Assembly (NCBI GenBank): GCA_030549775.1
Contig: CM060175.1
Coordinates: 5,394,564-5,458,563 of the forward strand
Direction of reading: 5' to 3'
DNA: 64,000 bases
Source of the DNA: Tamarix chinensis
Lineage: Eukaryota > Streptophyta > Magnoliopsida > Caryophyllales > Tamaricaceae
The notes beneath the pieces were generated by a model. It saw nothing but the letters and a program-made list of their open reading frames with translations. It was not told the DNA's origin and did not search any database. Position numbers and translations under genes: made by a program. Below, one piece after another: positions 2,871 through 30,500 of the stretch. Within the stretch, counting starts at the first letter, position 1. Every line of letters starts with the position of its first letter.

Positions 2871-5800
2871 ACAGTTGAATTTTTTTATTTAATTACAACA
2901 AACATGAGCACGGGGGTGCTATCGCTGTGATCAACACAAGCTTTGCCCCCGGCCAGTCTCATACCAACCACAAGACTAAAAAATAATTTTCACAAATCAT
3001 TAAAATAATTAAGACATGGAACTATAGAAATTTGAAATATTCATAATAAAAAGAAGTCAAAGTGAAAAATTAAAGCGTTAATACATAATTAAAAATAGAT
3101 TCAAGTCAAGCCCTCGAGGGAAAAAAGTGATACAATGGTAAAGTAAAACTAGAGAATGTAGAGAGTCTGGTTGGCACTCGCTCTTGGCCCCAAGCAAAGT
3201 TTAACAATCATCACACAGCCCTGTCCGACGCATCCAGTGCATCATAGGTATCGAACACGGTACCTCCTACCTACAAAAACTTAGAAGGGGCCTTTGCTCG
3301 TGGGAATGAGCAGCACCCATGAAACATGTGATCGTTACGTATTGAGTAAGGTAACCATATGGGTAAGGCCATACAAGATAATAGAAAAGTAAGGCATACA
3401 ATGCATGATTCAGGTTCATATCATCAATCTAGACTTAAACTAATATTTCTTTCTTACACATTTCTCATATTAATTCTGCATGAGTACGGGGACCCCACTA
3501 TTATAGCTGGTGGATCGGAAACACTCCATTGGGAAAAACACACCTAACCACTATTATAGCTGGTGGACCGGAATCACTCCACAAGGCAAAATATACCTAA
3601 CCACTATTATAGCGATGGATCAAAAAATTATCCTCGCTAGCCCAGACTCACATAGTACTCCACTGTAAGTAATTAGTATCTTTCCATGACTTATTACCAT
3701 GCAAAGTTTGGTTTAGCAAGCCTAGAATCCCCCACTATTACAGCTTGTGGACCGAAAACACTCCACAAGGCAAAATGCACTTGACTACTATTATAGCTGG
3801 TAGATGCAAAAAATATCCTCATAGGATCTGGCTTGATAATCTTTCACTTTAAATGTTTAGTATTTTGTTCGTATCTTATTCCACACACAATCCAGACTAG
3901 ACATCCATGACCCACTAGACTTCTCATGCTCACCCTTTTATTCTTAGTTCTCCCGAAACCCTATCCCATATCTCGAGACCTTTACACAACCTACGACCCC
4001 AAGACTTCCTCCCCATCTTTTCCCACTCACCATGAGAACCCAAAATTCTTCTGCACGTGGTTCTAGGCTCACTCCTGATAACCCTAGCTCGACTCCTCTT
4101 TACTCTCTATGGTTTCCCTACAAAACCCTAATCTAACCTATGTGGCGTCAATTCCCTTGATCCTACACAACCCACACTCTTCTTTGCTACCAAAACCATC
4201 ACTTCCCTCGAACCACACCCGACATCACAACCTCACTACCCAACTCCCACACGTGATCATAAAAACCCTAGTTCCCTCTCCTAAACCCTAATACTTCTCC
4301 TTTCTTTTATGTCACCCCCTCAACACCCAAACACTTCTTCTCACTTGGCTCATCTTTCCTTCATATGACACCCCTTTCATTCTTTGTTCCCCATTCTAAC
4401 CATTTCCATTAGTTTTCCCTTCCTTGCATGCTTCTCTCACTTAGGGTTTCCTCCCAAAACCTTAGTCAAGTCCCCCATGCATCCTTACACCAACCCACGT
4501 ACTATTTTTCACATATGAACTCCAATCACCCTAATAATTCTTCCATTACCTTACTTAACCCTCAAGTTAACTTTTTCCACATAAAGTTCATCCCCATGCA
4601 AAGGCTAACCATCCTATGCAACCCTACACTCCCCAAGCATCTTTTGGTCCATTCCCTTAACTTGTTCCCATTATTCATCCTTTTGCCCACCCATAGGTCA
4701 TAAGATATTTAGGCCATCCTTACCATCCTTTAGTCAACTCACTTTCCTCACTCTTTTTCATTTCTATCACAACCACATCACACTATTTAAGGCTTGCTAT
4801 CATGCTTGTCATGAAGAGTAATATTATATAAGCACATTCCAGGTACAAGTGATAATACCATATTACACATGTCATAAAATACATGCAACTTACCTTAGCT
4901 CCATGCTTAGCAAGTTGCACTACAAGAACATAACCCATAACATATAAGGTACACACAAATAATCAACACACATAACACATATTACACACACATTAGGCTT
5001 TAACCATATTCTTACCTAAAATGACACTGGGCTTGAAGCACGCTCCTACGCCTCCTTAGGGTTTGGACTTGGTTCACTTATAAAAGGAAAAATACTAGGG
5101 TTAACTTCCCTCTCATTAACATTTTCATTATTTCCTACTTGCCTTTATTATAACCTAGTATTAGGGATAATAATAGTAGTAGATTTAGTAGTAAAAATAA
5201 TGATATTACCCTTAAAATTGTTAATCATGCTATTATTAGATAAAATAGGGTTAGGTAGTTATATTTGTCAATGACAAGATATTATTAACAATATTAGCAA
5301 TAATAATGATGATGATGATCATAATAATAATAATAATAATAATAGTAGTAGTAGTAATAGTAATAATAAAAATAATAATAATGATAATGATAATAAGAAG
5401 GTTAGAATAATAATTACACTAAATAAATTATACTTAAGGGCTGGGAAGGGATAGCGCACAATGGAGAGAGAGTGGTAGCTGGGTGGCAGCGGCGGCTACG
5501 ACGACAACAGTGGTGGTGGTGGAAGTGGTGGTTTGGAGAATGTGGTCTTTTAAGTCTAGAAGAGAGAGAGTGAAATGGCAGTTGTGGTGGTGGTGGACTC
5601 TTAGGGCTGAGAGGGTTGGAGTGGTAGTGGTGGCACAACAAGGGTGGCGGTGTAGGTGGTGGTGGTTGTGGTGGTTAAGGGTGGTGGAGAAGTAAGGAGG
5701 AGGAAGGAGAGGGAGAAAGTAAGAAAGAAGGAAAGGGGAAGGTAGAGGAGGTCCTACTAGGTTGATTGGGTGGTAAGGGAGGTGGTGATTGAGGTGGAGG

Positions 5801-6885
5801 AGGCGGCACATGGCTACAAGAGGGGCAATGATGGGTGCAAAAGGGCAGGTCGAGCAGCCTACTTTAGATGGTTGGAGTAGCTTGGTTTAGTGGAGGGTAA
5901 TGCAGGGAAGGGTTTGGGTGGTGTTTTGGGCAACCGTGTTGTGCAACAGCGGCATCTAAAGTGGTGGCGGCGAAAATGCACCGAAGTTTTTGGGCAAGGT
6001 AAAGAAGGCCAAATGGGATTGGTAGGGGGTATTTATAAGCCAATGGAGGGAGGATAAGACAAAGGGGAAAGAGTACAAAGGGTAGGTGAGGCGGGGCTCA
6101 CTGGCCGGTAATGGTAAGCCTGTACGAGCCTGTAAAATTGCAGGGTGCAGTCGACAGGGGGAGGAAAAGGAAAGAGGAACGGGCATGCGGGGAAGGAGTT
6201 ACAGGGTAGGTTAGGGATGGAAAGGGAAAGGAAAAAGGATGGGGGAGAGAGGGAAAAGGTGTAGGCTGGCGATACAGTAGTAGAGGGGAGGATAGTAGTA
6301 GAGTTGCAGGCTGACTTGCAATGTGAGGATGGGGAGAAGGGAGGAGGGAGAAGAAAGGGTTGGGCCAGCTGGTCTGGGGGAAAAGAAAAGAAAAAAAAGA
6401 GGGAGAGAATCGGGTGGGTGAGGGAGGAAGGAAAAAAAAGAAACGGGCTGGGCCGCATGGGGAGAGAAGGGAGGAGGAGAGAGTTGGTCCGCGTGGGAGG
6501 AGAAGGCCCAATCCAGGGAGAGGAGAAAAAGGAAAAGAAAAAGGAGAAAAAGAAGGAAGGAAAAGGAAAAGGGGAAAAAAAGGAAAAGGAAAAATAGGTT
6601 GGTTAGGGAGTTTAGGATATTTTGGTATTTTTGAATATTTAAAAATTAGAAAAATAATAATTAAATCCCTTTTTATATTAATTTAGGATATTTTGGGTAA
6701 TTTTTCCTAAATTCTATTTTTAACTAGCAAAATGCTCTAATCTTCCCTGATTAAATTCTTTATTATTTTCCTCTTTTTTGTCTTAAATACTCCCCTTATT
6801 TTAATAAAATAATATATTTAATTAATTTTCCTAATAAATCCCTATTTTACCATAATTTTCTAAATTAGAATTTTAGGATATTACA
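2871..6885 (-). mobile_element. B1: B-family solo LTR inserted in gag
   Basis: This is a minus-strand copy of about 4.0 kb. Reading right to left it starts TGTAATATCCTAAAATT (6885) and ends ...TTCAACTGT at 2871, about 20 bp short of the full 3' end seen in B2 and B3. The flanks GTGTT (2866-2870) and ATGTT (6886-6890) are a one-mismatch 5-bp duplication. The interrupted gag reads on across the junction. Internal landmarks in element order are a purine-strand tract of GGAAAAG repeats (6360-6600), GGT/CCA-rich DNA (5480-5800), an AAT microsatellite (about 5315-5400), the CACTTTAAA box (3841-3853), tandem CTATTATAGC-type units (3490-3810), and the shared 3' end. It contains no gene; the Pro/His- and Lys/Gly-rich open frames are composition artefacts. 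Confidence 0.8.
5260..5400. repeat. AAT/GAT/AGT microsatellite in B1
   Basis: A run of imperfect three-base units (GAT, AAT, AGT) lies inside the B-family LTR. Homologous tracts occur at the matching place in B2 (24500-24561) and B3 (39985-40040), so the microsatellite belongs to the family and is not a local event. Confidence 0.85.
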
Positions 6886-7289: not shown

Positions 7290-10121
7290 TGTAACACTCC
7301 CATTTTTTACTACCAAAAAATTTTGTTAAATACATGTTGTGGAAGCATAATATACTTTGAAAAATGGAGTGTTACTATTATGCCTAACATAGGCTAGACG
7401 TCCACCGCCTACCTCATATCATATATAAGGCTAAACCGGCAAAAATACTAAAATGGTAGAGTGCGCGATGATAATTTAATTGAAACCAAATTCCAAAATG
7501 TTTACAATCATGACCCTAACGGGTTATGTTCATTAATTACAAGTACACATTAAAGTACAAAATTTTGAAACATAAATTGGGACATGAGGCCCAAAATAAA
7601 TACCATGGTTTTCCGCTGACCCCATCAAGACCTTTCGGATGTCCTCACTTATAATCCCATCCCAACGAAGGTAGGCCCTTTTCCCAATAATCCCCGAAAA
7701 CCTGCACAAGGTCTTCTGCTCACAGAAATAAGAAGGTGATCGACCAAACAAGCACATCAATACGATATGTGCTGAGTAAGCTAAGTTGTTCCCTTAATGT
7801 ATACGTGAATACCAATTTGTCATACACAATGTAGATTACTGTAAACATTATGATAAGGGCATATATGTGCATAAGGATAAAAGTACAAGAAGTCACATTA
7901 TCATGCATAATTCCAACAAGTAGGATACTTCATGCAGAGGCTCACCATATTTCCACATAAGCATGTACACACTTAACGTCAGGGAGAATCAAACAACCTC
8001 TAGGGATGATCCCAATTAACCAAATCCTCAAGTTATACCATTAGTTCATTTAAGAAAGAGATAAATGAGTCAACCCATCAATATTCCACTTCATAAACAA
8101 GTAGTCAAGTCAACCATTAACCAATTTTAATAACCAACTCTACTCACTTTTGACCAATCATACCATTACTTTCGTTCTTATCAAATATTAGCCATTCTCT
8201 TAATCATCATTTATATATGATCAATTTCTTACTTAACAACCATTTTTTATTATCATCAAGCGATGGACTATGCTCCACCCTATAGTCTCACATACCATGG
8301 AAGCCTATCTAAAAGGACATAAAGTCCAGACCGAAGCCAATTACCATAATGGACATAAGTCTAGGTTAAAGCTAATCGCTACAATAGACATAAGTCATGG
8401 CCGAAGCCAACCACCTAGGTAACAAGACCCTTTAGTATTGATACCCCTTAGTACATCATCAATGTCTATACTGGTAAGGCACTGAGACCTCTCAGGATCC
8501 CACCTAAAGGAAAAGCTCAAAGACACCAAAAACACCTAAAGCTAGACTAACTCCCAATAGCTAATCGAGGATCGGGTAATCCAAACCCATACTCAACTCG
8601 ACTTCGTTTTACTTTAAGTGATTAGTATTTTATTCATAAGGATTGGTAATCATACAAAGCTCATACAAGCAAACAAGGTAACCTCCATACTAAGCTATAT
8701 TGATCCTTTTTATTTCCATTTTCCCCAACATGTAGATGTACCATTTATCTTTGGCTAATGAGTTTCATATCTATCATAGGGTTTAATCCAAGACCTTACT
8801 AATTTCCATTACTCTTATTCCCATTTTATCACTAATTACAAGTGAGTTACACATTTAGCCTTTACATTGCTTATAATGCATGCCATAACTTATGATCCAT
8901 TTTAATCTCTTAATTAGGCTACTAATCCATCTTAAAATTTGTATTTCATCCCATTAATAATCATGATGTAGTCCCAAATATAACCCCTAAACATAAATGA
9001 ACCACAAAGCAACAATTCATGCAAACCAGTCAATTAGTCTGGCCCAACCAGTCAATCGGTTTGAGTTAACCTATCAATCGGTTCAACTCAACTAGACCAT
9101 GTTTCCTTCAAATTAGTCAATTGGTTTGGGCATACCAATCAATTGTTATTTGACCAGTCGATTGGTTTTGCCAATCCAATCGATGGGTTTAAGCAAATAG
9201 CAAAACTATGGTCTCTACAAGTAAACCAATCGATGGGTTGGGTCAACCAGTCAACTGTTCTAGGAACCAGTCGATTGTTTTAGCCTAACATAGCACAAAT
9301 TCACAAAGTCCATGCAAATTCTTGCATAAAAATCATTTTTACTCACCATAAAACATGTATCAACACCAATTAACGTATTTCTAACCAAATTATCATGTAT
9401 TTCTTACCGTAACATCATCATAGCCCATTTCCTCCATTTTCATGCTCTTTTCTCAACTTATGTCATTTAAACATATAAATCATGTATACAACTACATTTA
9501 TTCATACCAAAATGTATAATCTAACAATAGGCATCACTTTTCATACAATAACACATGCTGACATTTTAGGTGTAAGAATTACTCACTTGATGCATGTTAA
9601 ATCCCCTCAAAACTAGGATTTTCAAATATGTGAAAACTTCAACCCTCAAAACCTTAAAAACCAAAAATATTAACTTAGGTTTCATACCAAAACTTCATGA
9701 AATTCGAGCAAGAAAACAGAAAGGAAAAGAGCATACCATTAGGACAAAATATGCAAAAACTCAATTGGACCACTCAATCTTTTCCAAAGATCTAACTCTA
9801 CCTTGCTTAAAAAGTAAAATAAGATAGAGCTAGAGGTAGGATCAGGAGAGTGTGCAAAACAATTTGGAAAGTGCTCAAAGTGTGGAAGAAAAGAAGGGAA
9901 TGTATAACTCGGATAATTTTGGTGGCTGAAAGAAAGTGTAATACATGGAGGATTGGGGTTATTTATAGCCAACCAATTGAAGGGAAACAAAGAGGATTCA
10001 GAAGGCACTCGAAACCCTAATTGTGACCATTTGAATTTGATCAGAATGAACGAATTTGCTTGGGATATACCAACTTAGTCTCCCAAGCTCAATTTGTAAC
10101 TCTAGGGAATTTAGGTTAAAT

Positions 10122-13100
10122 TGTAATACCCCAAAAATTTACTTAAGCTAATCCCGCATCATTAGCACCTAATTTCATTCTAATCCTAATAAATCCTATA
10201 TTAGCCTTAACCTATCCTTAATCCTGAAATATTAACCGATTCCAAAAACCTTAACTTTGATAAATTGTAATTCATAAACCGAAATCAAATCCTCTAAATT
10301 TTTTGCTAATCCTAATTACCCTTAAATAATCTAAAATCATCCTAAACTAATCCCCTCAACCCTTTCTCTTTTCCTTTTCTTTTCTTTTCTTTTCCTTTTT
10401 CCTTTTCTTTTCTTTTCTTTTCTTTCCTTCTTATCCTTCTCCTGCCAACTCCTTTGCTGCAACTCTTGCACCCCCACTTGCACTATCCACTTGCACCACC
10501 ACCCATCACCTTTTTGCACCATTATCCATCACCCATCACCTTTCCCCTTCTTCTCCTTCTCCCATCCCTACAAACCTGCACCTCCCTCGTCGCACACCCC
10601 ATCTCCCTGAATCCCTCTTATTCTTTCCACCTTTATGCAATACTTTCATCAACCATCACCACCTCACCCTATCGCCATTACCTTGCCCTAGACATCCTCT
10701 ATAACCATCACCTCCATCACCAAATTATAGCTGCAACATCACCGATCTCCCCATCACGCACCACCCCTGTTCTTTTTCTTCCTTCCCCGAGTCACCACAC
10801 AAGCACACATGAACATATATATATATACTCACACTCTCCCTACTTCTATTTGGTTTTGCGTTACTTTGTTGATATTTTGTGCCAAAGAGCCATTACTGAG
10901 CTCTATCACCCTTCTTTTTCCCTTCTTCTCCCTTTCTTCTTCTTCTTCCCCTTCCTTTCCCTATTTTAGCTTTCGCACCACCATCTTCCCCCACCATTCA
11001 CCACGGCCTCCACTCACAACCCTTTAGCTGAAGGACCGACCACCAAGGTCTCCCTAACCTTCCCCCTCGCCATAGCTGGCCATCGTTGTTGACCACCGCC
11101 TACCGCCACCTCTTTTCCCTCCTTCTTCCTCTCATGTGTTGCAGCATTATAGAGTGCACGGTTGGTGCACCACCTACTGCACAATCGTGCAACGCTTAAA
11201 TCCCTTACTGCACAATCGTACAATCCCTGCACCATCTAACCGTGTAAAAATTTTCCTCTCGACCTGATTCTACACAATCATGCAATTTCGCACCGCCTAG
11301 CTATGTATTTTATTTTCTCCCAACCAGAAGCTACCATCCCTATTTTTACCTCCAAACCTCAACCAAACACTACCAAAATTCTACCATAGCTCCACCACAC
11401 ATTCCTCTAAACATCCACACATCTCAAGCTCTCATTTGAGTTCAGTTATACCTACTTATACCCTCTTTACCTTAATTTTTCCTTCGGTTTAACTCTTCGA
11501 GCTTAATTATAATTTTATTATTTTTTGTAGGTGGTTTTCCAATAGCTTTAGAGGAGGAAGTTTAGGATTTTGTGTGCTTAGAGCTCGGTGTCCTTGTTGG
11601 TAAGGATACTATTCGATGCTTAGGACTTTTGATGATAATTGCTTGTTCGAATAAATGTGTTTTTTGTGATATTACTACTATAATATGTAATATATGTTGA
11701 TATTGATAATTTGTGATGTTATACATATTATGTTAAAAGAATATAAGAGTTGTAAGAGATACCATTATGTTATGATTGTGACAATGATATCATATTTGTG
11801 AGAATGCATCTTATAGCATGAAATATGGGTTGAGTATTGTTAATATCATACTTGTGGAAATATATCTATGGTTGAATGATGATAATATCATACTTGTGGA
11901 AGTATATTAATGGTATAAAATTTGGTTTGAATGATGAGAATGTACTATTTGTGAAGATTATAACTTAAGGTATAAAATATGGGTTGAATGATGATAATGT
12001 CATAATTGTGAAATTATGTCTTATGGTATGAATATGGATTGAATGAGTTGTGGAAAATGGCTTTAAGGTCTCTCATGAGATATGATGACTAATGAGGACT
12101 TGGAAAAATAATATGTATGGAAGGTATAAGCTTTTATAAAATAAAGGTGCTGATTGTGCTAAAAGGGGTAACTTGGTCGTTATGGGATATTAAGGAAGTT
12201 TGATAATTTATGTGTTAGGAGGCTTAAATTATAAAAATAATAACTTGAGTAATTTATGGGAATATTATCATTATTTTGGGGTTCATAAATATTTAATCGT
12301 AAATTTGGGACAAGTCATCTTGAAATGTTAATATTGTTATTCCACCTTCATGGATTAGAGAATAACTATTGGGAATTAGAAATGATGAATATTTCATATG
12401 AAGTGTTATGAAAATTTTATAGGATTTAGACTCAGATACTTTAGTGTTTAATATATATGCCTTGGGATGAGATTACTAAATCAAACTCATGGAAATTAGG
12501 TTGTGCTTTTTGGGTATGATGCTAATGATGGGATTTGGGAGATATCATAATACAATGTGAGTGGAACAACCAATATGGGAGAATGAACACTAAAAGAGGT
12601 GTAATTAGATTTTGATAGGACTTAAGGGTTTGGACCTATATTACATGCATATCTATTTGACTATGTTCTATGCTTGAGAATCAACCATGAAATAAGATAC
12701 TAATCACTTAAAGTGAAAGAGCACGTGAGTGGAGCCATGGTGATTATTTTCCCTAAATCTATATATATGTATTCCTATTCCATCGAATAGAATAGTGGCT
12801 AAAAAGATTAGCGGCTCGGGTGTGTTGTCCCCGAGAAGTTTCAAACTGTTCCACCAGTTGATAATAGTGGGGTACCTGCTTTATAGAAAATATACTAATG
12901 ATTTAAAGTGGAAAAATGCATGATTCAGGACCATGGTGATTTATTTCCATTCCACCGAGTAGTATAGTGGCTAGGGAGCATTCTACCCCAAGGAGATGAT
13001 TTATTCTCATTCCACTGGTTAGAATAGTGGCTTGGGAGTATTATGCCCAAAAAGATGTTATCACCTCCATTCCACCGAAAAGAATAGTGACTTGAGTGTG

Positions 13101-13793
13101 TTGTCCCCAAGAAGTTTCAGACCGTTCCACCGGTTTAAAAATAGTGGGGTTCCTGCACTCATTGTATATAAAAGAATGAAAATGGACTATACTTAATAAA
13201 ATGATTTGGATCATATTATGCCTTATGAGATGATCATTTACTTGGTTTTATTTCATTTATCATTTACTGTGAAAGCATGTGCTACATGTATTCCTATTTT
13301 TGATAGTATTGTTCCCTTTCTTAATACGTAGCGTATTGACCACCCGTTTTATGGCTACTGCTTATTCCCATGAGCAGAAGGCCCTACATCTTATGTGTAG
13401 ATTTTAGTGGATTATGTAGATGATTTTTTGGCCTATGAAACCTTATGTGAGGATGGGTGACTCCATTTATGTCAGGGTTAGGTAAAGAATATTTGTTATC
13501 GGGGTTATGTATTAAACTGGATACCCCTTTTGGACTCTTAATCCACGGTATCCCCTTTTTGCATTTTAGTATTGTAAAACTCAGAGTAATACTCCAAACT
13601 CAATATTTGTACTATAAATGCACTTTTGATTCCAATTTCGTTGTATTACTTTGAAATTTTTAGCCTTATTATTGATGTAAGGACGGTTGCTTAAACTAGA
13701 ATTATGTTGATCACGGCGGTAACCCCCACTATTTTTACTTATTTATTTCCGCAACAAATGAGAATTTTCAGTGGTAAAAATTGGGTTGTTACA
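10122..13793 (+). mobile_element. D1: D-family solo LTR nested in C1
   Basis: It runs from TGTAATACCCC to TTGTTACA, 3672 bp, between TAAAT (10117-10121) and CAAAT (13794-13798), a one-mismatch duplication. In order it has a CTTTT-rich tract (10365-10440), C-rich DNA with frames that are Pro/His/Ser runs, hairpin units of the GCAC...GTGC type (11150-11300), an AT-rich stretch, the CACTTAAAGTGAAAGA box (12705-12720), four to five units with the core ATTCCACC...ATAGTGG (12780-13150), a TACGTAGCGTA palindrome (13320-13340), and the shared 3' end. There is no primer site, polypurine tract or gene, hence the solo LTR reading. Confidence 0.8.
10365..10432 (+). repeat. CTTTT microsatellite
   Basis: Imperfect repeats of CTTTT/CCTTTT lie near the 5' part of D1. 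The homologous tracts of D2 (about 20910-20975) and D3 (about 52740-52785) are shorter. Confidence 0.85.
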
Positions 13794-14690: not shown

Positions 14691-17600
14691 AGTAACACCC
14701 CCAAAGTTAGTACTTATATTATTTTTTACATATGTATAAATTATAAAATAATGAATGTTACCACTACATATAAAATAAGTCTAGTCTCCTTACTAGCCTT
14801 ATACCAAGTGCTAAGGCTCAAAATAAGTTAGATCCAAAATAAAGCAATAAAAAAAAGAGAGATAATAATATATATAAAATTTATGGATAAACATCCTCCG
14901 TACAACAACAATAATCAAAATATAATAAGATACATAAAAGTCCGAAGGAAAATTAACTATACTAGCATCTGAAGATATGACACCAATTTTCCTTTAGTTT
15001 AAGACCTAAAATCCCATTTTGAGAATGAAACCTCCTCCTAATAACACTATTAATATTTACCACACTTATACATCACATACCACTCCATGATCCACACATA
15101 ATCATCTGCAAGTGTAGTATCAATACGACTTTCTTGTATGGAGTAAATTACGATACCTCACAATAGGTAGCATGCTCACATTACACATTATCACACAATG
15201 ATCATAAGACATTTTTAAAGCACGACGGTTATATGGGATAAGAAGAACATGATAACCATCTGATGGCATATACAAAATCAAAGTATTATGCTCAGCAACG
15301 AACATACTTATCTATTCACATCGACCTCAAAACACACAAATATCATTTTATAACTCATGATGAGCAAGGTAGTGTATTGAGGCTCTACTACTCAACTAAT
15401 CAAATTAATTCCAAACATCAATGGTAGGGTACGAAGGTAGCTAATAAACCGATAAACTAATACTTACCATAGACATAAAATAAATGCTTCCTTCTTATTT
15501 ATTTTAATCAAGGAAACTAAATCAACCTAGGGACACTGATATATACCTGGTTATATTAGTGTCTAGGGGTAGCAAGATAACCTTAGATCAGAACTTGGGG
15601 ACACTAATGTGCATCTGATCATACTAATACAACAAGGCCATATAGTAACCTTAGTCATCTAGGTCACCTAATCCTTAAGTATTGATACTCCTTAAGAAGT
15701 CCAGATAACCAATTAGAGTAAATGTAAGGCCTTGGTAGGGCACAATGACACACCTACAAAATAAATCAAACTAAGGGATAAATCTTATCCTTAGGGTAGC
15801 TACCCCTAAGGAGCAACCTATCCCAAACTTGAGGTATTTCACTTTAAATATTCATACGTTATGAGGTGATCACACAAACTACATAGTCCATAATAATTCT
15901 AATTCTAAAGTTAAATTATTCAATTCAACCCCCCTAAAGTCAATATTCCAAAAAAATTTAACATCATAATTGAGGTTAATATATCAATATACTAAGGCTG
16001 TCATATGGCTAATAATTCATATTGATACGCATTAGATCAAAATAATCAAAATGTCCATAAAACCCTAACTACAAAAATATTATCCAATTCAATATCAAAC
16101 TTTATTATTATGATAATTTGTCATGAAATGATTAAAAGGTAATAATTTACAACACTTTAATACATAGGTAAGTTTGTAGGCATAATGATCAACTATATTT
16201 CTCGTTATACATGTATTCTATAATTTACGTATGCAAAGCCCTAAACATACCTTTCTAACATGTCATCAATATCCCATGCAACACATATGCATAGATTTAT
16301 AGCATGATTCAAAATTTAAGATATAAATAAAATATCATGGTGCATGTAAGAATGCATTTTGAACCCTAGAGCATGTGAATAATATTTTTAACAAATTAAC
16401 CATAATCATGCTTGCGTACTATTATGCTATATATATATAACAACCCTAGCAGTAATATGTAAAGAGAATCATGGAACACTTAGCATGGCATAAGCATAAT
16501 AACTTGACAAGGTCACATACCCTAACAAAACCCTAGTCATTCATATGTTATCCTTTTACATATTCAACATGCAGACGTCACATAATTAATAACAAGTCAA
16601 ATAATCATGTTTTCAGCATCCACATGTTTTCATAATACTTGCATAAAATAAAACCTAGCATGATTCTAATTCTAAACACACTATCATGCTCACACACAAA
16701 TTCTACTTTATCATGAGTGATTGGATTTACCTAAATGCAAGCTACACAAAAATACAAAAGTTTGCTTTCTCCACAACACCTCAAGTATTACTTAATCAAG
16801 GAACACCTAGAAACATATATTAGCACATAACATAATACGATAATCATAAAAAAAAACTAATTGGGGAAGGAATAATAGATAATCAAGGCAAAGGAAAGTT
16901 ACACAACAACACAATAATAAATCAATAACGGGTGAAGCTCACATTGCAAGGCCTTAGTAATGTGAGATCTTCATGTTAGGAGTGGCTGATTTGTGTCACT
17001 AAATCACACATAAGAGGGGGATGCAGAATCCAAAGGTCATGTAATGAGGGCTTCATGGCGTTAGAAGATCACATTGGTAAGGAAGTGGTGAAATCTCAAG
17101 GCACTAATGTGAGTATCTCTTATAGCAAATGGGGAAAGAAGAATGTGAGGATTGGAAGCAAAGGATGGGAAGCAACATGAGTTTATCACATTAATAAGGA
17201 GGTTCAATGTGAGTTGTTCATACAAGGAAGGAGAGGCAACATTGGGTTGTAGAGTTTCAACACATGTAGCTTTAACAAAAAATTTGAAACTGCGAAGGAG
17301 AAAGAAGGGAAAGCTATGAATGGAAGCTCGAGATAAAGTGAAGAAGTGTATCAACAAAAGTACACATATTCTAGCTAGATCAAAACACAAAAATTAGGGA
17401 GGAAAGATGTCTTATATAGGCAATGGTGGCATGTGAACACAAATTTTAAGGAGTTACTAACAAAGGCAGACATGCAAGGAAAATGGTAAGGGCATAGAGT
17501 GTGTAGAGAGGTGGTGTAAAAATGCAACATTATAGAGGGGTTGAGTGTAGAGAAGGTTAAAAATTACAACATGGTTTGGTATTCTAGTTAGAGTAACCAA

Positions 17601-19042: not shown

Positions 19043-20657
19043 TGTAACACCCCAAAATTTTAAAACCTAAAATTTAAATGTTTAACCTTTTATGCGGAAT
19101 AATTTAATCTTAAATTACTGATTTAATTATTTTGTGGACTTTTAACTTACAAAATAGATAAAATTATTTAATAAACTAATATAATTATTTTTATCATTTT
19201 ATCTTACTATTTTTATTTAAATAAATCCCCAAACCCATTATTTTACCAAAATTATTTTATTAAATTAATACCCTAATTTTTGAATAAATTAATTCAATAT
19301 TTTCTTAATAGTTAAATTTAATATAAATTCTAATCCTAACCCTAAAAATATTTTCTTTTTCTTTTTCTCCTTTTCATTTTTCCTTTTTTTTCATTTTCTT
19401 TATTTTCTTTTCTTCCTTCTTCCTTAGGCTAGCCCAACCCTTCCTTTTTCCTTCTCTTCTTCTCTCGCCCAGGCCTTTCTTCTTCTTTTTTTTAATTTTC
19501 TTTTCTCTTCTTCTCCCCTTAGGCCAGCCCAACCTCTCCTTCCTTTTCTTCTTCTTCTTTTTTTTCTATCACGTGGGCTAACCCACCTCCTCTTCTTTTC
19601 TTTCCTTCCTCACACAGCCCATTACCCTCTCTTTCTTCCCCTACACCCCTATGCCAAATCGCCCCTCCCCCTCATGTGCCTTTTGCCCCCTACACCCCTA
19701 CTAGCCTACACCTCCACCCTACTAACTGGGTTCCCTCCACTACCCCCTCTACTTGTCCCTTTCCTTGCCATTTTTGACTGAATAACCCCTACTTCCCTTC
19801 CCTACGTGCTCCTCTTCCTTCCATTTTCATCCCTATCTTTGTCGCCCTATTATACTATGTCTGCCTAACCTTATACATTGAGCCTCTCATACCCTTCTTT
19901 TTCTTCTCCTTCTTCTTTTCTTTTATATGCCATTATCCCTTATGATCTATTCTGTAACACCCCGAGTCGATATGACCATGTAGGAGCTACTGTGGAGCAC
20001 TTTTGGATTAATCGATTGGTTCTACAAATTAATACGAGTCCTTTCAGATCACTTTGTGTAATACCCCAAAAACTCTAATTTAGGAAATTATGATAAAATA
20101 GGGATTTATTTGTGAGATTAATTAAATATAATTTTTATATGAAATAATAGGAGTAATTAAGACAAAAAAAGAGGGAAATAATAAATAATTTAATTAGGGA
20201 AGATTAGGATAATTTGCTAATTAAAATAGAATTTAGGAAGATTTACCCAAAATTTTCTAAATTAATATAAAAAGGAATTTACTTATTATTTTATTAATTC
20301 TTATTATTTTTAAATATTCAAAAATACTAAAGTATCCTAAACACCCCCACCACCCTATTTTCCTTTTTTATTTTTTATTTTTTCCTTTTTCTTTTTTCTT
20401 TTTTTCTTTTCTCCTTTCTCGTTTTTTCTCCTCTCTTTCCCCTGGTTGGGCCTCGCCCGTGTGGCCCAACCTCCCCCTCCTCTCTTCTCTCCCTAGCGAG
20501 GCCCAACCCACATCTTTTTTCTTTCTTCCTCCCTCACCTGTCTAGTTCTTCCCCTCTCTTTTCCTTTCTTTTCTTTTTCCTTAACCGGCCGACCCAACTT
20601 CTTTCTTCTTCCTCCTCCCTTCCCCCATCCTCATGCTATAGGTCACACCTACGACCT

Positions 20658-23553
20658 TGTAATACCCCGAAAATTTGCTTAACCTAATCCTACATCATTA
20701 GCGTCCTAATTTGATTCTAATATCAAGAAATCTTATTGTTAACCTTAACCAAATTTCTTAATCCTAAAACTTTAATCAAAATTGAAACCTTGATTTAGAT
20801 AAACCGTAATTTATAAACCAAAATTAAAACCCACTAAAATTTCCACTAATCCAAATTACTTGGCTAATCCAAAATTGCTTAATTTAATCCTAATCCCCTA
20901 ACCCATCTCTCTTTTCCTTTTCTTTCTCCTTTTATTTTCTTCCTTTCTTCCTTTTTCTTTTCTTTTCTTTTCCCTTCTTCTCCTGTGCCGATTTTGTGGA
21001 GTGAGAGTTTTGGCTTCCTTTACACCACCACCATCATCTTGTTCTCCCACATGCACCATGACACCATCATCCCTGCCCCCCTCATGCCTATCTTCTTTTT
21101 CTTCTCTTTCCCTACACATCACCATCACTTCCCCTGCCACTCTTTTTCTTCCTTCTTCTTTCTATTGCTGCTCTATTTTGAACATCAGTCACAATCACCA
21201 TCACACTCCCCGCTTTTATCTCTAGTGCATGTCTTCTTCATTATCATCACCCCCTCATGCCTCTACCTGATCTCCATCCATTTCAACTATCACCATCCCC
21301 TATCCTTTTTCATTTCTTCTTCTTGATAGATCATCAACGTCATCATCGTCACCCCCTGCCATTTTCTCCTCCAAGGCATGCCACCATACTAGTATATATA
21401 TCCCTCTATCCCTCCATTTTATTGTCATCCCTCACCTCCCTAACCTTATTCTCTTCTTCCTTCTCCTTCATCCTTCTTCTTCCCCCTCCTTTCTCTATTT
21501 TCAGCATTTGCACCATCCAAGCCACCACCAAGCACCACCCAAGCTACCAGTCACCCCAAACTTCCCCCTTTCCGTCACCAGCCATCACCACCAACCACTG
21601 CCTCTTTTCCATTCTTCTTCCCCTTGTTCATTGCAGTGTTGCAAAATGTATGGCCTATGCACTAGCTGCTGCACGACCGTGCACTACTTAGATGTCCCGC
21701 TGCACAACCATGCAATTCTTACGCCGTCTGGCCATGCGTTTTATTTTCTTTCAGCCTAGTACTACACAACTGTGCAATTCTTGCACTGCCTTGCCATGCA
21801 TATTTTCCTCCCTCGACTTGTTGTGCACTGTTGCTGCACAGCCATGCAACTTTTGCACTGCCTAGCCGTGCAACTTTCTTTTTGGCCGTGTACCCCTATT
21901 TTCACCCCAAATCTTGTCCAAACACCACCAAAATTTAACCATAGCTCCACCACACATTCTTCTACACTTCCATTTGACTCTGATAAATTTTATTTTTACC
22001 CCCTCTACCTTGACTTCCCTCTCAATTTTTAATCTTCAATCCTAATTTATTTTATCCTATTTTTGTAGGTGATCTTCTGGTGATCTTGGAGCAGGTATAG
22101 GATTTACATACATAGAGCCCAATGTACTTGTTGGTAAGGATACATGTAATAGATAGGGATTTATGTGATACTTGTATCTTTGTATATGATTTTATGTTGA
22201 GTATGTTATATTAAATAATTTAATTATGGAAATGCTATGAAATGGTATTCTTGAGATCAATAAAATTATGTAAGTTTGTATTTGGGTATAATATTTGATA
22301 CAAGATATCTAGGGAAAACTAAGGATATGTACTTCAAATATTGATTAGAAATGTATATGCTTCATGTTTTATAAAGCTTTGGAAGAACACAATTGTCTTA
22401 CCTACCCTAAGGTTATTATGGTCATTTGATGATAATTACGTGGCCGTACTTATGTATTTAATTGAATTTCTTTCATTTATATGAGTTTGGCATGATAATA
22501 CACAATCAATTATAAATAAGGTATCAATCATTTAAAGAGAAAGATCACGTGGGTCGAGCCGAGGTATTTATATGGCTCTGTTCCACCGGATAATAATAAT
22601 GGCTCGAGTGTGTTGTCCTCGAGAGGTACTTCAGCCCGTTCCACGGATTAAGAATAGTAGGGCATCATGCTCAATGTGAATGAAAATAAAATTAAGAGTT
22701 AAACTATAAATAAAAAGATACTAATCATTTAAAGTGAAAGACTACGTGAGTTAGGACCAAAGTGTTGAGTCCGTTCCACCTGATAATAATAGTGGCTCGA
22801 GTGTGTTATCCTCGAGAGGTGCTTTAGACCATTCCATCGGTTTAATAATAGTCGCTCAGGAGCATTTTATTCTGAGAGGTGTTGGCTCCGTTCCACCGAA
22901 TAATAACAGTGGCTCGGGTGTGTTCTTCCCAAGAGGTGTTTCAGACCATTCCATCGGTTTAAGAATAGTGGGGTCCCTAAACTCAATGTAAATAAAAGAT
23001 TGGAATATAGTATATCTAATGAAATACCTGGAATTAGTATTTATCTAGCATTCTTTGATTTGTGCATATATGATTTTCATATGATAATTCTTGTAACCCT
23101 ACTTGATTGTACCATTACCTTACTTGGTATGTAGCGTACTAATCATCCTTTTCATGGGTGTTGCTCAATCCAAGGAGTAGATGACCTAGATGTTTATGTG
23201 TAGGTTGATGAGGACCAGGTGGATGAATTCATAGCCTTTGATACGATATATGTGGAGGAGTGATAGTTTTACCTAGATACCTTTTTGGATTCTTAGTTCC
23301 ATGCGATCCCTTTCTATTGTATTTTGATAATGTAATTGGAGTTGATCTCTAAATACTTATTTAATGTTATTAAAAGTTATCTTGTTTCTTAATATCATGT
23401 TTTAAATTTTCTAACCGTTTTGCCTTGTGATTGATGTAAGGATGGTGGGGGTAAGCTAAACTTATGTCAATTACAGTAGTAACACCCAATTATTCTATTA
23501 TATGCTTCCGCTTAAAACAAAATTTTTTTAGTAGTAAATTTTAGGGTGTTATA
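20658..23553 (+). mobile_element. D2: D-family solo LTR nested in B2
   Basis: It runs from TGTAATACCCCGAAAAT to GGGTGTTATA (the last but one base mutated), 2896 bp, which is about 0.75 kb shorter than D1 and D3. The AT-rich middle seen in D1 (about 11700-12500) is largely missing. The flanks GACCT and GATAT match 3/5. It carries the GCAC...GTGC hairpin cluster (21650-21880), two AAAGTGAAAG-type boxes (22527-22544, 22724-22741), each followed by tandem CCGTTCCACC...TAGTGGCTCG units (22580-22660, 22775-22975), and the GTAGCGTAC palindrome (23130-23150). Confidence 0.8.
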
Positions 23554-24499
23554 GATATGCCACAGTCCTTCCCCCTACTAGTGCATGCCTACCTGCTTCC
23601 TTCTCTCTTTCCCATCCTTTTCCTTCCCATTTTGAGCCCAGCCTACCCCTATCCTGCCTCTCCTACGTGCTCCCTTCCCCTTCCCTTTCCCGTCCTCTAC
23701 CCTACAACCCTAAAATTCACAGGGCCTATACTGGCCTACCACAGCCGATCGGCAACCCCTAGCCCCTACTCCAATGTCATCTTACCCATTTGTCCCCCTT
23801 TCCCTCCCTTGACCTATAAATACCCCATATCAACCCCCATTTGCCCTCATTTTCTGTGCCTAGAAATTCCCACCATTTTTTCCGCCACCACTTTAGACAG
23901 TGCCCCAGCTGCCGGTGTGCAACGCCACTACATGAAACACCACCCAATCTCTTCCTTGTATTACCCTCCACCAAACTAAGCCACTCGCCACCCTTGAATC
24001 TCCCTACACAAACCACCCCGGTTGTGTACAATTTGTAGCTTGAGCTGCCATTTACACCTTATTGCCGCCCTTCTCGCTGTCGTGCGCCACCCCTTCTACC
24101 ATAATCACCACCTCCCCTGCCCCCATTTGACTTAGCATACCCTCCTCCACCTTCCCCTACATTTCCTTTTCCCTTTCTCCCTCTCCTTCCTCCTTCCTCC
24201 TTCTCCACCACCCTCAACCACCACAACCACCACTACATACCTCGCCACCCTACTATGCCACCACCACCACTACATCCCTCTTAGTCTATAGAGTCTACCA
24301 CCCCACAACCACCACCTCTCTCTCTCTCTTTCATCTCTAAAAGACCCACCTTTCCCAAAACCACCACTTCCACCACCACCGCCGTGTGCCACTACCACCA
24401 CTGCCACCTAACTGCCGCCTTCACTAGGTTGTACCCTAACTATTCCTAGCCCTTGAGTATACATTATTTAGTATAATTATTATTCTAACTTTACTATTA

Positions 24500-24523
24500 T
24501 CCTTATTATCATCATCATCATCA

Positions 24524-24561
<38 letters not shown>
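24500..24561 (+). repeat. ATC/ATT microsatellite in B2
   Basis: This is a run of ATC units followed by ATT units, in the family position equivalent to 5260-5400 in B1 and 39985-40040 in B3. Confidence 0.9.
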
Positions 24562-24563
<2 letters not shown>

Positions 24564-27500
24564 AAGTTATTATCATTGTTATTACTAATATTGTTAATAA
24601 TATTCTACCATGACTATTATGACCACCTAACCCTATTTTGGCTAATAATAGTATGGTTAACCACTTTAGGGATAATACCCTTATTTTTACTACAAAAGCT
24701 ATTGTTATCACTATTATCACTAAGACTAGTTCATACTAGAGGTAAAGTAGGAGATAACGAAATTAATAAGAGGGAAGTTAACCCTAGTGTTTTCCCTCTT
24801 ATAGGTGAGCCAAGTCAGACCCCTAAGGAGGCCTAGGAGCGTGCTCTAAGACTGGTGTCATTTTAGGTACGGATATGGTTAAGGCTTAAATGCGTATAAT
24901 ATATATTATGTGTGTTGGTTATATGTGTGTACCTTGTGTGTTATGGATTATGCTCTTGTAATGTAGCGTGATAAGCATGGAGCTAAGGTAAGTTGTATAT
25001 GGTTCTATGGCACATGTAATATGGTATTTTTACTTGTACTTGTAATGTGCTTATGTGATATTGCCCTTCGTGGCATACATGATAGGAGGCTTTAAGTAGT
25101 GGGATGTGGTTGTGAAAGGAAAAGGCAAGTAAGTAAAGTGAGTTAACTAGAGGGTTGTAATAATGGCCTAAAATCTCATGATTTATGGGTGGACAAAGGG
25201 AAGAAATAATGTGAATAAATTAAGAGGGTGGATTAAAATATGCATAGGGAATGTAGGGTTACAAGGGATGGTTAGCCCTTGCATGGGGATGACCTTTATA
25301 TGGAAAAAGTAGACTTGAGGGTTAGGTAAGGTAAAGGAAGAGTTGTTGAGGTGATCAGAGTCCATATGTGAAAAATAATATATATGGGTTGGTAAAAGGG
25401 TACATAGGGGACTTGGCTAGGGTTTGGGAGGAAACCCTAAGTAAGATAAATGTGCAAGGAAGGGAAAACTAATGGTAATGGTTAGAGTGGGGAATAAAAA
25501 TGAAAGGGGTGTCACATGGAGGGGAATTAAGCGAAGGGGGAAATGGTGTTTGGAGTGTTGAGGGGATGATATAAAAGCAAAGAGATATACTAGGATTTGG
25601 GGAGTGAACTAGGGTTTTTACAATCACATGTGGAAGATGGGTAGTGAGGTTGTGATATTGGGTATGGTTTGAGGGGGAGTGGTGGTTTTGGTAGCAAAGA
25701 GGAGTATGGGTTGTATAGGATGAAGAGGAGTGAGGCCACATAGGATAGATTAGGGTTTCGGAGGGAAACCCTAGAGGGTGAAGAGGAGTCAAAATAGAGT
25801 TATGGGGAGTGGGACTTGAACCACATGTACAAGATTTTGGGTTTCTCATGGTGAGTGGGAAAGTATGGGGAGGAATTCTTGGAGTCATAGATTGTGTAAA
25901 GGTCCCAAGATAAGGGATAGGTCTTTTTGGGAGAACTGGGAATAAAGAGGTGAGCAAGGAAAGTCTAGTGGGTCATGCATGTCTAGTCTAGGTTGTGTGT
26001 AGAATAAGATAAAAGTAAAACACAAAACACTTAAAGTGAAAGATTATCGAGCCGGATCCGGTGAGGTTAATTTCTGTTATATCGATTATAATAGTTGTTA
26101 GGTGCATGATGCCCTATGGAGTGATATTCGGTCCACCGACTATAATAGTGGAAAGGTGCGTTTTGCCTTGTGGAGTGTTTCAAGTTCACCCGCTATAATA
26201 GTGGGGGATTTCGAGCTCCATAAACTAAAATTTGCATGGTAATAAATCATTAGAAGATACTAATTACTTACAATGAAATACCATGTGAGTTGGGGCTAGT
26301 GAGGATAATTTCTAGTCCGTTGGCTGTAATAGTGGTCAGGTGTGTTTTGTCCTATGGAGTGATATCCAGTCCACCAAATATAATAGTGGTCAGGCGTGTT
26401 TTACCCTGTGGAGTGTTTTCGGTCCACTGGTTATACTGGTAAAGTCCCCATACTCATGCGAAATTAATATAGGAAATGTGTAAGACAGAAATAATAGTCT
26501 ATGCCTGGCTTAATGATATAAACCTGAACTATGCATTGTATGCCTTACTTGTCTATTATCCTTGCATGGCCTTATCCATATGGTTACCTTGCTTAGTACA
26601 TAACATACTGATCACTCATTTCATGGGTGCTGCTCCTTCCCACAAATAGAGGTCCCTTATGAGTTAGTGCATGTAGGAGATGTCGTATTCGATGCCTATG
26701 ACGCACTCAATGCGTCAAACGAGGTTGTGTGATGACCCATTAGACTTTGCATAGGGTCGAGAGTGAGTGTCAAGTGGACTCTTCTTTTTCCAGTTCTTAT
26801 CCTATCTTACTGTTTGTATTATTATTTTCCCTTGAGGGCTTTAACTATATAATTATTTCCATTCTGTAATGATTTTTTAATCACAGACTCTAATTTTCTA
26901 TTTATTTATGAATCTTTCGTATTTCTATGGTTCTATGTCTTAAGTGAGTTTAATGTCTTGTGATATTACTTTATAGCTTTGTGGTTGGAGTGAGACTGGC
27001 CGAGGGCCAGGCTTATGCTGATCACAATGATAGTATCCCCTGTGCTTGTGTATGTTTTTAATTAAATAAAAATTTTCAACTGTGATTTTTGGGGGTATTA
27101 CACTTTATCCTCACTTACGTACTTTCCAAGAAATTTTTAAAAATTTTCTAAAACTTCCTAGGAGAGTTATCCACCCTAAAAATTATTCCACGGCAAACAC
27201 GCTTAACTGTAAAGTTCTTAGGACTAAATTACCAAAAGGATGGTATACCATGTTGATATAAGTAGCCAAATCAATCATTATAACACTCTACTCACTTTGG
27301 GCTATTACAGGCTCTTCTCTCCTTTGATCCTCTCTTCTCTTTTTCTCCCTTATTTTCCTCCCCTGTTTTTCCTTCAACCCCCCCTTCAGCCACCTTTGTT
27401 ATCTCCACCACCATCCCAGTCTCGACACCGCCATGTCCTCCTCCCTACACTACCTCGAGCAGCCAACACTTGCCACCCCTGCATCCTAACCCTCCTTTTT

Positions 27501-30500
27501 CTCCTTCTCCCCTTCGACTCCTGGAACCGTCACCCTTGGCCACCTCTTCCTCCTGTTACTGCACCGCTACCCTAGTCCCCAATATGTCTACTGCCACCTT
27601 AACCTTCCCCCTACACCACATCACTTGATCCACCCATCCTTTCCCCCTTCCCTTTCCCTCTCTCTTATCCTTTCTTCCTCTTCTTTTCCTTCTTTACACC
27701 TCCCTCCTTACAGCCGCATCTCCGTCACGTTCTCACCACCTGCACCTTGACCTCCAACCACCATCCACCTCCTACACCCAACAACCAGCAACAACACCCC
27801 CACTATCTCCCCCAACCCTTTACCCAAGCCACCACCAACCTTCCCCCTTTCCATTCTTGGCAACCTTCCATGGCTCACATTGTATATTTTATTAGGTATT
27901 TTGATAATATTAAGGTATAAGGTGGTTTGGTAATGTTATATTTAATAAATATTGTTAATAAAAATCATTCTTTTATTTATCTAATATTAATATTATATTG
28001 TGATATAATTTTTAGGTACAAAATTTTATTAAACAGAGTCTAAGCACTTTTAATTGAATACCCGTAAAGTTTATTTTTACTGGAAATAAGGTAATCATTA
28101 TACCCCTTTAAAATGTTTATATTAGCATATGTTAATGCATTAGAATTTTTGGCATATGATTTGTGTGGATATAATATGTTACAAATAATCCCATGATTAT
28201 TAATGTTATCTTAAAAAATAGAAAGAAAAGCATGTTATCTTGTATATGATGTGATATGTATGAATGGGTAATTAAGAAGGGGGTTAATGTTTGATGATGG
28301 ATGTTAAGTGTATATGATTCTATACTAAGTAAGTGTGGACACTTGTAGTAATAATCCTACTAATATGAGCCCTAGGGGCAATATGGCTATTTGGATACAT
28401 CATGATATTTAACCCTAATCGAGATAACTAATGTGTTATAAATGTTGCTAAGAATGAAAATAGGAGATTGGTGTATTATAAATACATCTTTTAGTAGGAA
28501 TATTAATATTTTGTGGCCTAAGGATATTTTGGTAATTTTAATGTATGGTAGTGATCATCCTCACTAAAATGCATGCTAAGTGTTATGTGGTATTGAAAAT
28601 GATAATAGGGATTTATGGTATTGAAAATATATGTCCCGTCATGATTAATAAAATTTTATAACCTAGGGACATTTTAGTAATTTTGCATGTGAAATGGAGG
28701 TTATCTAAATAAATATGCATGATAAGTAATAATCGGTGCTAAGTGTGATGATAAGTGTTTTTGGTGTTAGGAATGCATGTTTGGGCATGATTTATGATAT
28801 TATATGACCTAGGGGCATTTTGGTAATTTTAAATGTAATATGGTAGTTAATCTAATAAAAATGTATGAAAGGTATAAATTGATGTTAAATATGATAGTAA
28901 GGGTTTATTATCTTAGTATCACATATACAAGTATGATAATCAATAATATATGGTCTAGGAGTATATTGGTAATTGTGCATGTAATATGGTGATTAGCCTA
29001 ATAAACCTACATGATAGGTATTAACTAATGTAAAATATGAGAATAGGGGTTATTGCCTTAGTATCCCATGTTCAAGCATGATTATGAACATTATAGGGTT
29101 TAGGGGTATTTTGGTAATTTAGAGTGCACAGTGATGAATATGCTAATGAATAGTTTAGGGGTAACTTGGTGAATTGGAGTATGCTATGATGTTATTCGCA
29201 TAAACATGCAAGAAGTGCATTAATTATTGATTTAAGCATAATAATGTGTGTTTAATTGTTATAGAAGCGCATGTTGGGGTTTTATGTGTAAAATGATCAT
29301 TTGGTGTGTTGTGTAACTTAACTTCTTGATCGAGAATTTAATAATGGTGTGTTATCCTTTTAATGGCTTGTTGATGAAATAAAATGGATTTTGTGATGGA
29401 AATAGATGGTACAGAGGTAGCCTTAGCCTTAGGGGCATTATGGTCATTTTAATCTAAAGTGCCTAAGTGTAAGGAGTTGAGTCTAGGATGGCCTTAGTGG
29501 ACTACTTATGTTGACGTTGATAGTAATTCTGATTCTTGTGACTTCGTAATGTTGGAAACAAATAAAAATGGTTAAGTATGTGATTAATGTGTGCTTATCA
29601 TGGTCACCCTAATTAAAATACTAATACTTAAAGTGAAAGACCTTGAGATCAGGAATGGTGGCTCTTTAGGGGTCACTACCCTAAGGACGTGGTTTAGCCC
29701 AAGATTATTCTAGATTTTGCTAGTGTGCCTTAGTGCCCCAGCCAGGTCCTACATCGTACTCTATTTAACTCTACAGACCTAAGTAGAGGGTATGTATACT
29801 TATGAATTAGGTGTCCTTATTGGTAGGGTACTATATACCTTTGTATACTAGTGCGACCAGGGTATATTCGTGTCCCTAGGTTGATAGTTGGTAGGATACT
29901 ATGTTGCCCTTATGTGCCAGTATGACCGGTGTACCTTAGTATCTTCAGGTTCCTGATCTTCTCCTCAAGTAAATAAAATAAAATTGTGTGATAATTAATT
30001 GGAAGTGATTATTAAAATGTTTTAGTAGCAGCTTTTATGCCTACTTGTGTTTTGGTGGCAACCTTTGAGCCTACCCGAGTTTCAGTAGTAGTCTTTAAGC
30101 CTACCTATGTATCGGTAGCAGCCTTTGATCTTGCCTGGGTTTTTCTCGTAGCATTTGAGCCTACCTGTGTATTGGTAGCAACCTTTGAGCCTACCTAAGT
30201 TTTGGTAGTAGCCTTGAGCCTATTTGTGATTTGGTAGTAGCCTTTGTGCCTACCGTGATGGATTATGTATAGTATTGTATTGATGGGCCTATGGCCTACC
30301 TATGAGTTGAGTGGATGGTGTGTATTGTTGAGTATGATGCCATTTTCTAATTATACTACAAAGAGCATCACTTGAATGTTCCAGAGGTAAGTTTCTATTA
30401 CTTGTAATTAAATGAGCACCAATGGCATATGATCTTGATGTATGTAGATATCTGAATGATTTTTGCATTTTAGTTTATATATGTATAATTCCATGTTCAT

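Follow-up and report, generated by a model that had tools for sequence, protein, structure and literature searches.

A stem-closed cassette of tandem hairpins as a candidate selected RNA structure in the long terminal repeats of Del/Tekay-type retrotransposons

Folded cis-acting RNAs of retroelements are already known, and the portions of the descriptions available to us show, for the IAP and MusD elements and for retroviral Psi, that retroelements use such RNAs for export and packaging. Among the long terminal repeat (LTR) retrotransposons of plants, we take Retrosat2 of rice to belong to the Del lineage. Its LTR is divided, in the available part of PMC3485330, into U3 (1-244), R (245-2266) and U5 (2267-3292), and the Del attachment sites given in the available part of PMC4029996 match the LTR ends described below. 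Here we analysed a single 64-kb window of Tamarix chinensis DNA (contig CM060175.1, positions 5,394,564 to 5,458,563), to which all counts refer, in which LTRs of several families carry tandem arrays of short units behind a conserved box. We lean towards the view that these arrays belong to an RNA structure under selection, carried by the genomic RNA of related Del/Tekay-type elements.

The exact box AAAGTGAAAG occurs 10 times in the window against 0.21 expected, and 0 of 100 shuffles reached 10. It is carried by the LTR copies F1, B1, D, F2, E1, E2, F4, E3, C2 and B2 (letters denote families), while the boxes of C1 and E4 are variants. In B1 the box and its preceding bases (12704-12716) read TCACTTAAAGTGA, a perfect odd-length palindrome; elsewhere the corresponding bases are CATTT/AAGTG. 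In B, D, F and E2 the box opens a cassette of constant order, consisting of a 5' closing arm (type CGTGAGTCGGGGCC), hairpin units, a last hairpin 1 and a 3' closing arm (type GGTCCCCGTACTCACG), which is trailed by an A-rich stretch. Each unit joins hairpin 1 (CCAC-loop-GTGG) to hairpin 2, the latter taking the form CTCGGG-loop-CCCGAG, CTCGAG/CTCGAG, CAGG/CCTG or others. At no more than one mismatch the hairpin-1 motif TCCACC...AATAGTGG was found 29 times, against 0-1 per Markov-simulated sequence (n=10), and 29/29 lie inside the arrays of seven LTR copies. Two such cassettes are present in each of B1, B2, D, F1, F2 and F4 and one in E2, where it is preceded by a differently built cassette common to E1, E3 and E4 (Table 1).

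An earlier note on this DNA had placed tandem arrays downstream of the box, and Tandem Repeats Finder recovered nearly all of them at the places named (12946-13094, 22762-22953, 26083-26204, 30019-30254, 34688-34838, 38475-38609, 41521-41646, 41760-41888, 54916-55156 and 56269-56368); the stretch 8330-8400 is not listed by the program, and its units are readable there directly. The claim that the slot after the box is conserved while unit sequence turns over was borne out in B, C, D, E and F. Absence of the arrays from most family members did not occur, as CCAC units are present in seven LTR copies, GGTAG units are shared by E1 and E3, and C units by C1 and C2. A seventh copy of the CCAC array, on the minus strand at 3473-3852 (F1), was missed. 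The array reported at 34685-34840 is real and belongs to E2, which also bears a different cassette at 34248-34600, and the GGTAG arrays at 30000-30260 and 38440-38610 are those of E1 and E3 rather than of F1 and F4, where the note had put them. In place of the single array per copy that it described, a tandem pair of cassettes is present in all six copies of B, D and F.

The strongest covariation was observed not in the CCACC/GGTGG arms proposed earlier, but in the closing stem, which the note had overlooked; the CCAC/GTGG core varies little, and so tells little either way on the pairing of those arms. Pairing energies of the cognate closing arms in the 13 cassettes ranged from -9.0 to -25.6 kcal/mol and averaged -17.2; with 3' arms exchanged among cassettes the average was -13.8 (p=5e-5, the floor of 20000 permutations). 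Swaps confined to families (12 cassettes; -16.8 cognate vs -14.2, p=0.006), to first or second position (-17.2 vs -15.0, p=0.001) and to F alone (p=0.005) gave the same direction. Composition-shuffled arms had a mean of -9.1, the lowest of 2000 sets being -11.6, and 12/13 cassettes fell in the lowest 1.1% of random LTR window pairs. On a hand-made alignment of the 13, with bulges placed by hand and rows that share ancestry, so that cell counts overstate independent events, 90.9% of cells were paired vs 80.5% in shuffles (0/500 as high), two-sided changes were found in 9/14 closing pairs (shuffle mean 5.0, 1/500 as high), and the covariation score was 0.442 vs 0.252 (0/500). When the partner arm was slid, paired cells dropped to at most 46.5%. 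The pair adjoining the inner CC/GG shows all four Watson-Crick types (GC, AU, CG, UA). The strongest closing stem, in F4 cassette 2, has 14 pairs and two single-U bulges, and the change from TTGGGG/CCCCA in F2 cassette 2 to TCGGGG/CCCCG in F4 is two-sided. For hairpin 2 (27 units) the overall arm swap also gave p=5e-5, with two-sided change in 4/6 pairs, 81% of cells paired and a covariation score above 500/500 shuffles.

Because the pair counts involve manual placement of bulges, weight falls on the tests free of it, namely the arm swaps and RNAalifold on MAFFT alignments. Without being supplied with the stem, RNAalifold placed the closing stem in six F/E2 cassettes and an equivalent one in three E first cassettes. 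Against column shuffles the sense z was -4.05 for the F/E2 set and -3.75 for the E set (0/60 each), and -0.50, -2.11 and -0.26 for three control blocks of F LTRs. Compensating changes were present in 13/94 predicted pairs of the three E copies. When E4 was added afterwards, having been unused in finding the stem, the closing stem was kept (z -4.99, 0/60) and compensating changes were present in 15/86 predicted pairs; this four-copy stem has 9 pairs, three of them two-sided, one by virtue of E4 (G-C to A-U). By eye, 9/13 single-sequence sense folds contain the closing stem, and a blind scan from 11 boxes returned the expected partner in 6 (F1, D, F2, E2, F4, B2). The compensating changes that the earlier note had looked for were therefore found in the closing stem, in hairpin 2 and in the E first cassettes. 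Its view that the units fold holds by consensus for the cassettes of F/E2 and the first ones of E, but not for the E1 GGTAG array or C1. Thus the claim of a folded module covers B, D, E (first cassettes and E2 cassette 2) and F, is strongest for E and F, and does not extend to every array. A closing stem in C was sought by eye and by scan, its best partners lay elsewhere, and it is not claimed. None of 4227 Rfam families matched, and a tRNA scan returned nothing.

Long, decayed elements nested in one another fill the window, their ends being TGTAATACCCC / TGTAACACCCC ... GGGTRTTACA; the mapped copies look like solo LTRs of ~3 to 5 kb, and the arrays sit in the 3' third of these solo-LTR-like elements. 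A 5-bp target-site duplication is a Del/Tekay trait, and the candidate 5-bp flanks agree at 4/5 in F2 and B1 and at 3/5 in D and F4, B2 being ambiguous. To the 19-base pattern TGTARYACCCCRAAAWTTY the 5' ends show 0 mismatches in B1, D and E1, 1 in F2, 2 in B2 and E2, 3 in F1 and C1, and 5 in F4. The LTR starts fit the Del/Tekay U3 attachment (att) site TGTAACACCC or come near it, most 5' ends being TGTAATACCC, one base off the commonest Del form in the available portion of PMC4029996. The type A U5 att site (GGG at -8 to -10) is present in F2, F4, E2, B2 and D, is 2/3 in B1 and is damaged in F1. As none of 20 stop-free frames matched a retrotransposon domain in Pfam, we assign the elements to a putative Del/Tekay type by their ends, LTR length and layout.

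Wobble pairs in the closing stem favour an RNA of the plus strand. A dyad acting at the DNA level would be expected to show G.U and A.C about equally, whereas we counted 21 G.U vs 4 A.C cells on the plus strand (by column, 11 and 4). The covariation term of the F set was -2.41 sense vs +0.23 antisense, and the covariation measure of the E set (four copies) 4.25 and 2.38, respectively. As to the place in the transcript, all three F copies have a TATA box near the LTR start (Table 1), E1 has one at +280 and D a weaker one at +155, and CT-rich tracts then occur in B, D, E and F. By likeness to the layout of Retrosat2 the arrays likely lie in U5 or late R, and a leader transcript that includes the cassette is fairly probable. 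Whichever placement holds, the genomic RNA includes LTR sequence, as R-U5 at its 5' end or as U3-R at its 3' end.

Alternatively, the arrays may be DNA-level regulatory repeats in U3, that is, clustered transcription-factor sites upstream of the LTR promoter, for which the repeated palindromic boxes of Sireviruses and the tandem repeats of Tnt1 would be models. CACGTG (the G-box) and AAAG (the Dof core) adjoin the box in certain copies. B1 and B2 each have a canonical TATATAAAAG no more than about 20 nt past the last hairpin, which would put the B array in U3; D has TAAATAAAAG, a similar A-rich string, at the corresponding place, and the scan near the LTR start found no TATA in E2, B1, B2 or C1. 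The available parts of the sources describe Sirevirus motifs shortly upstream of a conserved TATA box (PMC2829016) and U3 tandem repeats in Tnt1 and retroviruses (PMC3601003). However, paired changes in arms that lie about 100-300 nt from each other would be left unexplained by a protein site, and the excess of G.U over A.C is not expected from one either. Moreover, inspection by eye behind the F and E2 arrays showed no canonical TATA, while one is present close to the LTR start in all F copies and in E1. We regard this alternative as unlikely.

Several results weigh against a selected leader RNA, among them the promoter-like sequence after the B arrays and the copies without an early TATA just described, as well as the hand alignment and shared ancestry mentioned above. 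B1 cassette 1 is the sole one of the 13 without a closing stem, and arm swaps were not significant within B and D together (p=0.09) or within F by position (p=0.11). In the blind scan E1 gave a neighbouring register, and B1, E3 cassette 1, C1 and C2 gave partners at other places, while the energies of the six recovered partners had background fractions of 0.001-0.154. The hairpin-2 arm swap within families gave p=0.12 (B 0.48, D 0.08, F 0.11), the number of its two-sided pairs is not unusual (113/500 shuffles had as many), it shows no strand preference (10 G.U vs 11 A.C), and its covariation lies mostly between families. This pattern fits divergence between families while the elements were active and decay after insertion; it could also be due to shared descent. 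Single-sequence folding of the 13 cassettes was ordinary (mean z -1.16 sense, -1.97 antisense), and with the antisense strand slightly better, energy alone cannot carry the claim. Antisense consensus folds likewise gave z -5.69 for F/E2 and, for E, -2.56 with three copies and -3.19 with four; mirror images of one pairing would make both strands beat column shuffles. The control blocks are not flat, one F block reaching -2.82 antisense and another -2.11 sense (1/60), and the second cassettes of B1 and D as a pair gave z -0.82 sense (12/60) and -2.77 antisense. Neither the E1 GGTAG array (z +0.98) nor the C1 slot at 8220-8580 (z -0.14) folded beyond shuffles. When the whole window was folded in tiles the arrays did not stand out, since 3 of the best 40 tiles listed overlap a cassette (26081-26240 +, 26401-26560 - and 15681-15840 +, the last two opposite to the cassette strand), and several other best tiles are low-complexity tracts.

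The ordinary folding energies and the C1 and E1 arrays without a fold would also suit neutral tandem duplication in a region where the LTR tolerates it; the inverted-repeat look would then come from an ancestral CCAC/GTGG core and the rest from chance and descent. Tandem repeats that stem from plant LTR retrotransposons have been amply documented. This explanation is disfavoured, and we give it little probability, given the closing-stem covariation with its controls and the consensus folds, which beat shuffles more strongly than three neighbouring blocks, a result upheld with E4.

It has also to be considered that the cassettes lie in a leader intron, with splice-like sites flanking the slot and a folded RNA that regulates splicing or marks unspliced RNA: donor-like TTGGTAAGGATA is present in B1 and D and TTTTAGGTAAGGATA in F4 (weaker in F1 and F2), acceptor-like TTTTTGTAGGTG in B1, B2 and D, and the block GTAGCGTACTGA follows the slot in B1, B2, C2, D and F4 with 1-2 mismatches, while the box itself starts with ATACTAAT, which we take to resemble a branch point. 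This is the least probable of the three, as such short patterns match elsewhere in the window too, F4 has lost the acceptor AG (GTTGCG), B2 and E have no clear donor, and plant LTR elements, Ogre and EVADE excepted, generally lack introns according to the available part of PMC12786077.

Splice-like patterns common to the LTR families were also seen before the slot, acceptor-like TTTTTGTAG|GTG and donor-like (TTG or TTTTAG)|GTAAGGATA, at 11522-11610, 22060-22142, 53878-53889, 40323-40334 and 5018 (-); in B1 and D they bound a possible leader exon some 65-70 nt long. The conserved block after the slot, in full GTAGCGTACTGA-YCACCC-N-GGGTG-CTGCTC-N-GAGCAG, is readable as two small putative hairpins (13328-13390, 23131-23190, 42047-42105, 55631-55690 and 56911-56970).

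Under the selected RNA structure that we favour, each cassette would begin behind the conserved box, pairing between its ends would enclose its hairpins in a row, and compensating changes would preserve both the closing stem and the variable hairpin. Unit number and sequence would turn over by tandem duplication, and whole cassettes would have been duplicated in B, D and F. Placed in the R-U5 leader, the cassette could serve as a multivalent docking site on the full-length RNA, bound either by Gag, in packaging and dimerisation, or by export factors. A fixed frame with a varying number of alike hairpins would imply several equal binding places for one protein. Binding of the Gag nucleocapsid for packaging is our first choice of role, tentatively held; RNA export or stability comes second, at rather low probability, and translational control or splicing are among the remaining roles. 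It is possible, if somewhat doubtful, that the cassette is a modular stem-closed RNA domain, a packaging/dimerisation or export signal evolving by gain and loss of hairpins, with valency as its working variable. The function for repeated hairpins suggested by the earlier note agrees with the compensating changes and the conserved slot, but the arrays of C and of E1/E3 give no hairpin evidence for it.

If true, this would be a tandem-expandable cis-acting RNA in plant Del/Tekay retrotransposons, a lineage that looks widespread. The folded module with its covarying stem is a concrete, short and testable candidate across several families, and it offers a mechanism-based reason why tandem repeats in LTRs hold their place while their sequence changes. 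In the literature searched, which mostly excluded subscription papers, we found no report of plant Del-type LTRs with a hairpin cassette that is closed by a stem and expandable in tandem. Outside the window CCACCRRYTATAATAGTGG occurs 0 times in viral contigs and 2 times in prokaryote genomes, vs ~15 expected by chance (an estimate).

Table 1. LTR copies, cassettes and related features of the window. Energies are those of cognate closing-arm pairing in kcal/mol.
Feature	Position	Strand	Remarks
LTR copy B1	10122..13793	+	solo, inserted in C1
LTR copy B2	52508..56095	+	solo, inserted in C2
LTR copy C1		-	hosts B1
LTR copy C2			hosts B2
LTR copy D	20658..23553	+	inserted in F2
LTR copy E1	19043 onward		interrupted by F2
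LTR copy E2	30796..35540	+	second possible end at 35789
LTR copy E3		-	interrupted by F4
LTR copy E4	about 15500-15860	-	fragment; BLAST match, then aligned
LTR copy F1	2871..6885	-	3' end damaged
LTR copy F2	20057..27102	+	interrupted by D
LTR copy F4	38617..42545	+	inserted in E3
B1 cassette 1	12708..12892	+	box 12710-12719, damaged hairpins, weak closing arms, -9.0, rank 13/13
B1 cassette 2	12903..13169	+	degenerate box, 5' arm, 3 units, last hairpin 1, 3' arm, -14.6
B2 cassette 1	54878..55226	+	box 54880-54889, 4 units, arms AGTAGGG / CCCTACT, -17.2, rank 1/13
B2 cassette 2	55258..55476	+	2 units, closing arms, -17.2
D cassette 1	22532..22682	+	variant box, 1 unit, last hairpin, closing arms, -16.1
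D cassette 2	22729..22993	+	box 22731-22740, 3 units, closing arms, -18.2
F1 cassette 1	3710..3852	-	box 3841-3850, 1 unit, arms CAAGCC / GGCTTG, -17.5, rank 1/13
F1 cassette 2	3473..3668	-	2 units, closing arms, -14.3
F2 cassette 1	26031..26226	+	box 26033-26042, 2 units, closing arms, -15.5
F2 cassette 2	26268..26466	+	2 units, closing arms, -17.8
F4 cassette 1	41475..41671	+	box 41477-41486, 2 units, closing arms, -18.3
F4 cassette 2	41712..41910	+	2 units, -25.6
E2 cassette 2	34637..34860	+	2 units, closing arms, -22.6, rank 1/13
E2 cassette 1	34248..34600	+	box 34248-34257, other inner hairpins, own closing stem, -24.6 in the blind scan, background fraction 0.001
E1 cassette 1	29630..29975	+	box 29630-29639, homologous to E2 cassette 1
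E3 cassette 1	42810..43156	-	box 43147-43156, homologous to E2 cassette 1, decayed
E4 first cassette	15506..15845	-	variant box AAAGTGAAAT at 15836-15845; fragmentary fourth E copy
E1 GGTAG array	30019..30254	+	30-nt GGTAG...CTACC units in the place of cassette 2
E3 GGTAG remnant	38475..38609	-	severed from box by inserted F4
C1 box (variant) and slot	8220..8628	-	TGGCTTCGG...CTTATGTCC units
C2 box	52472..52481	+	B2 inserted 26 nt after box; slot resumes at 56096
C2 tandem units	56269..56368	+	Tandem Repeats Finder
TATAAAAGG	38823..38831	+	+207 of F4; TATAAAAAGG at +210 in F2 and +209 in F1
TATATAAAAG	13165..13174	+	directly after B1 array; B2 equivalent 55472-55481

Other features of the window were observed beside these. 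The two B copies sit at different places in the two C copies. Upstream of its box E2 holds a long degenerate array of ~27-28 nt TGGTAATTTTATAAGTAAAAGGG units (32806-33791), and E1 a 145-nt repeat (28785-29147). A host gene adjoins the retrotransposon nest, represented by two plus-strand frames matching APEH_N, the N-terminal domain of acylamino-acid-releasing enzyme (61567-61887, E 4e-7; 61891-62268, E 2e-45), and degenerate AAACCCTA telomere-type repeats lie close to them at 62585-62747. By these repeats and frames the window is plant DNA in content.

Compared with the systems described so far, the LTRs studied here resemble Retrosat2 and other Del/Tekay LTRs in their very long LTRs, ends like TGTAACACCC and GGG at -8 to -10, as given in the available parts of PMC3485330 and PMC4029996. 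For Retrosat2 the available text reports that a TATA lies a little after position 212, that CTTTTT forms a tandem tract, and that the U5, some 1 kb long, is conserved within Oryza. The main text of PMC4029996, as far as available, has no mention of hairpin, secondary structure or tandem repeat, and the available part of PMC3485330 speaks of tandem repeats for the CTTTTT motif and in a figure legend only. Retroviral Psi is alike in its several hairpins and long-range pairs in the leader, and tandem-expandable units are not mentioned in the descriptions available. The RTE of mouse IAP and the MTE of MusD are likewise cis-acting folded RNAs of LTR retrotransposons, but act through NXF1, whereas plants use TREX instead (available part of PMC12786077). 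Sirevirus motifs share with our arrays many dyad-symmetric units in a fixed LTR slot whose sequence varies between elements; they differ in being short palindromes, nearly all with a CGG-CCG core, that lie in CpG islands and are read as DNA sites (available part of PMC2829016). The units described here have CCAC...GTGG and CTCGGG/CCCGAG-like arms in place of that core, and their cassettes hold longer hairpins inside a covarying stem.

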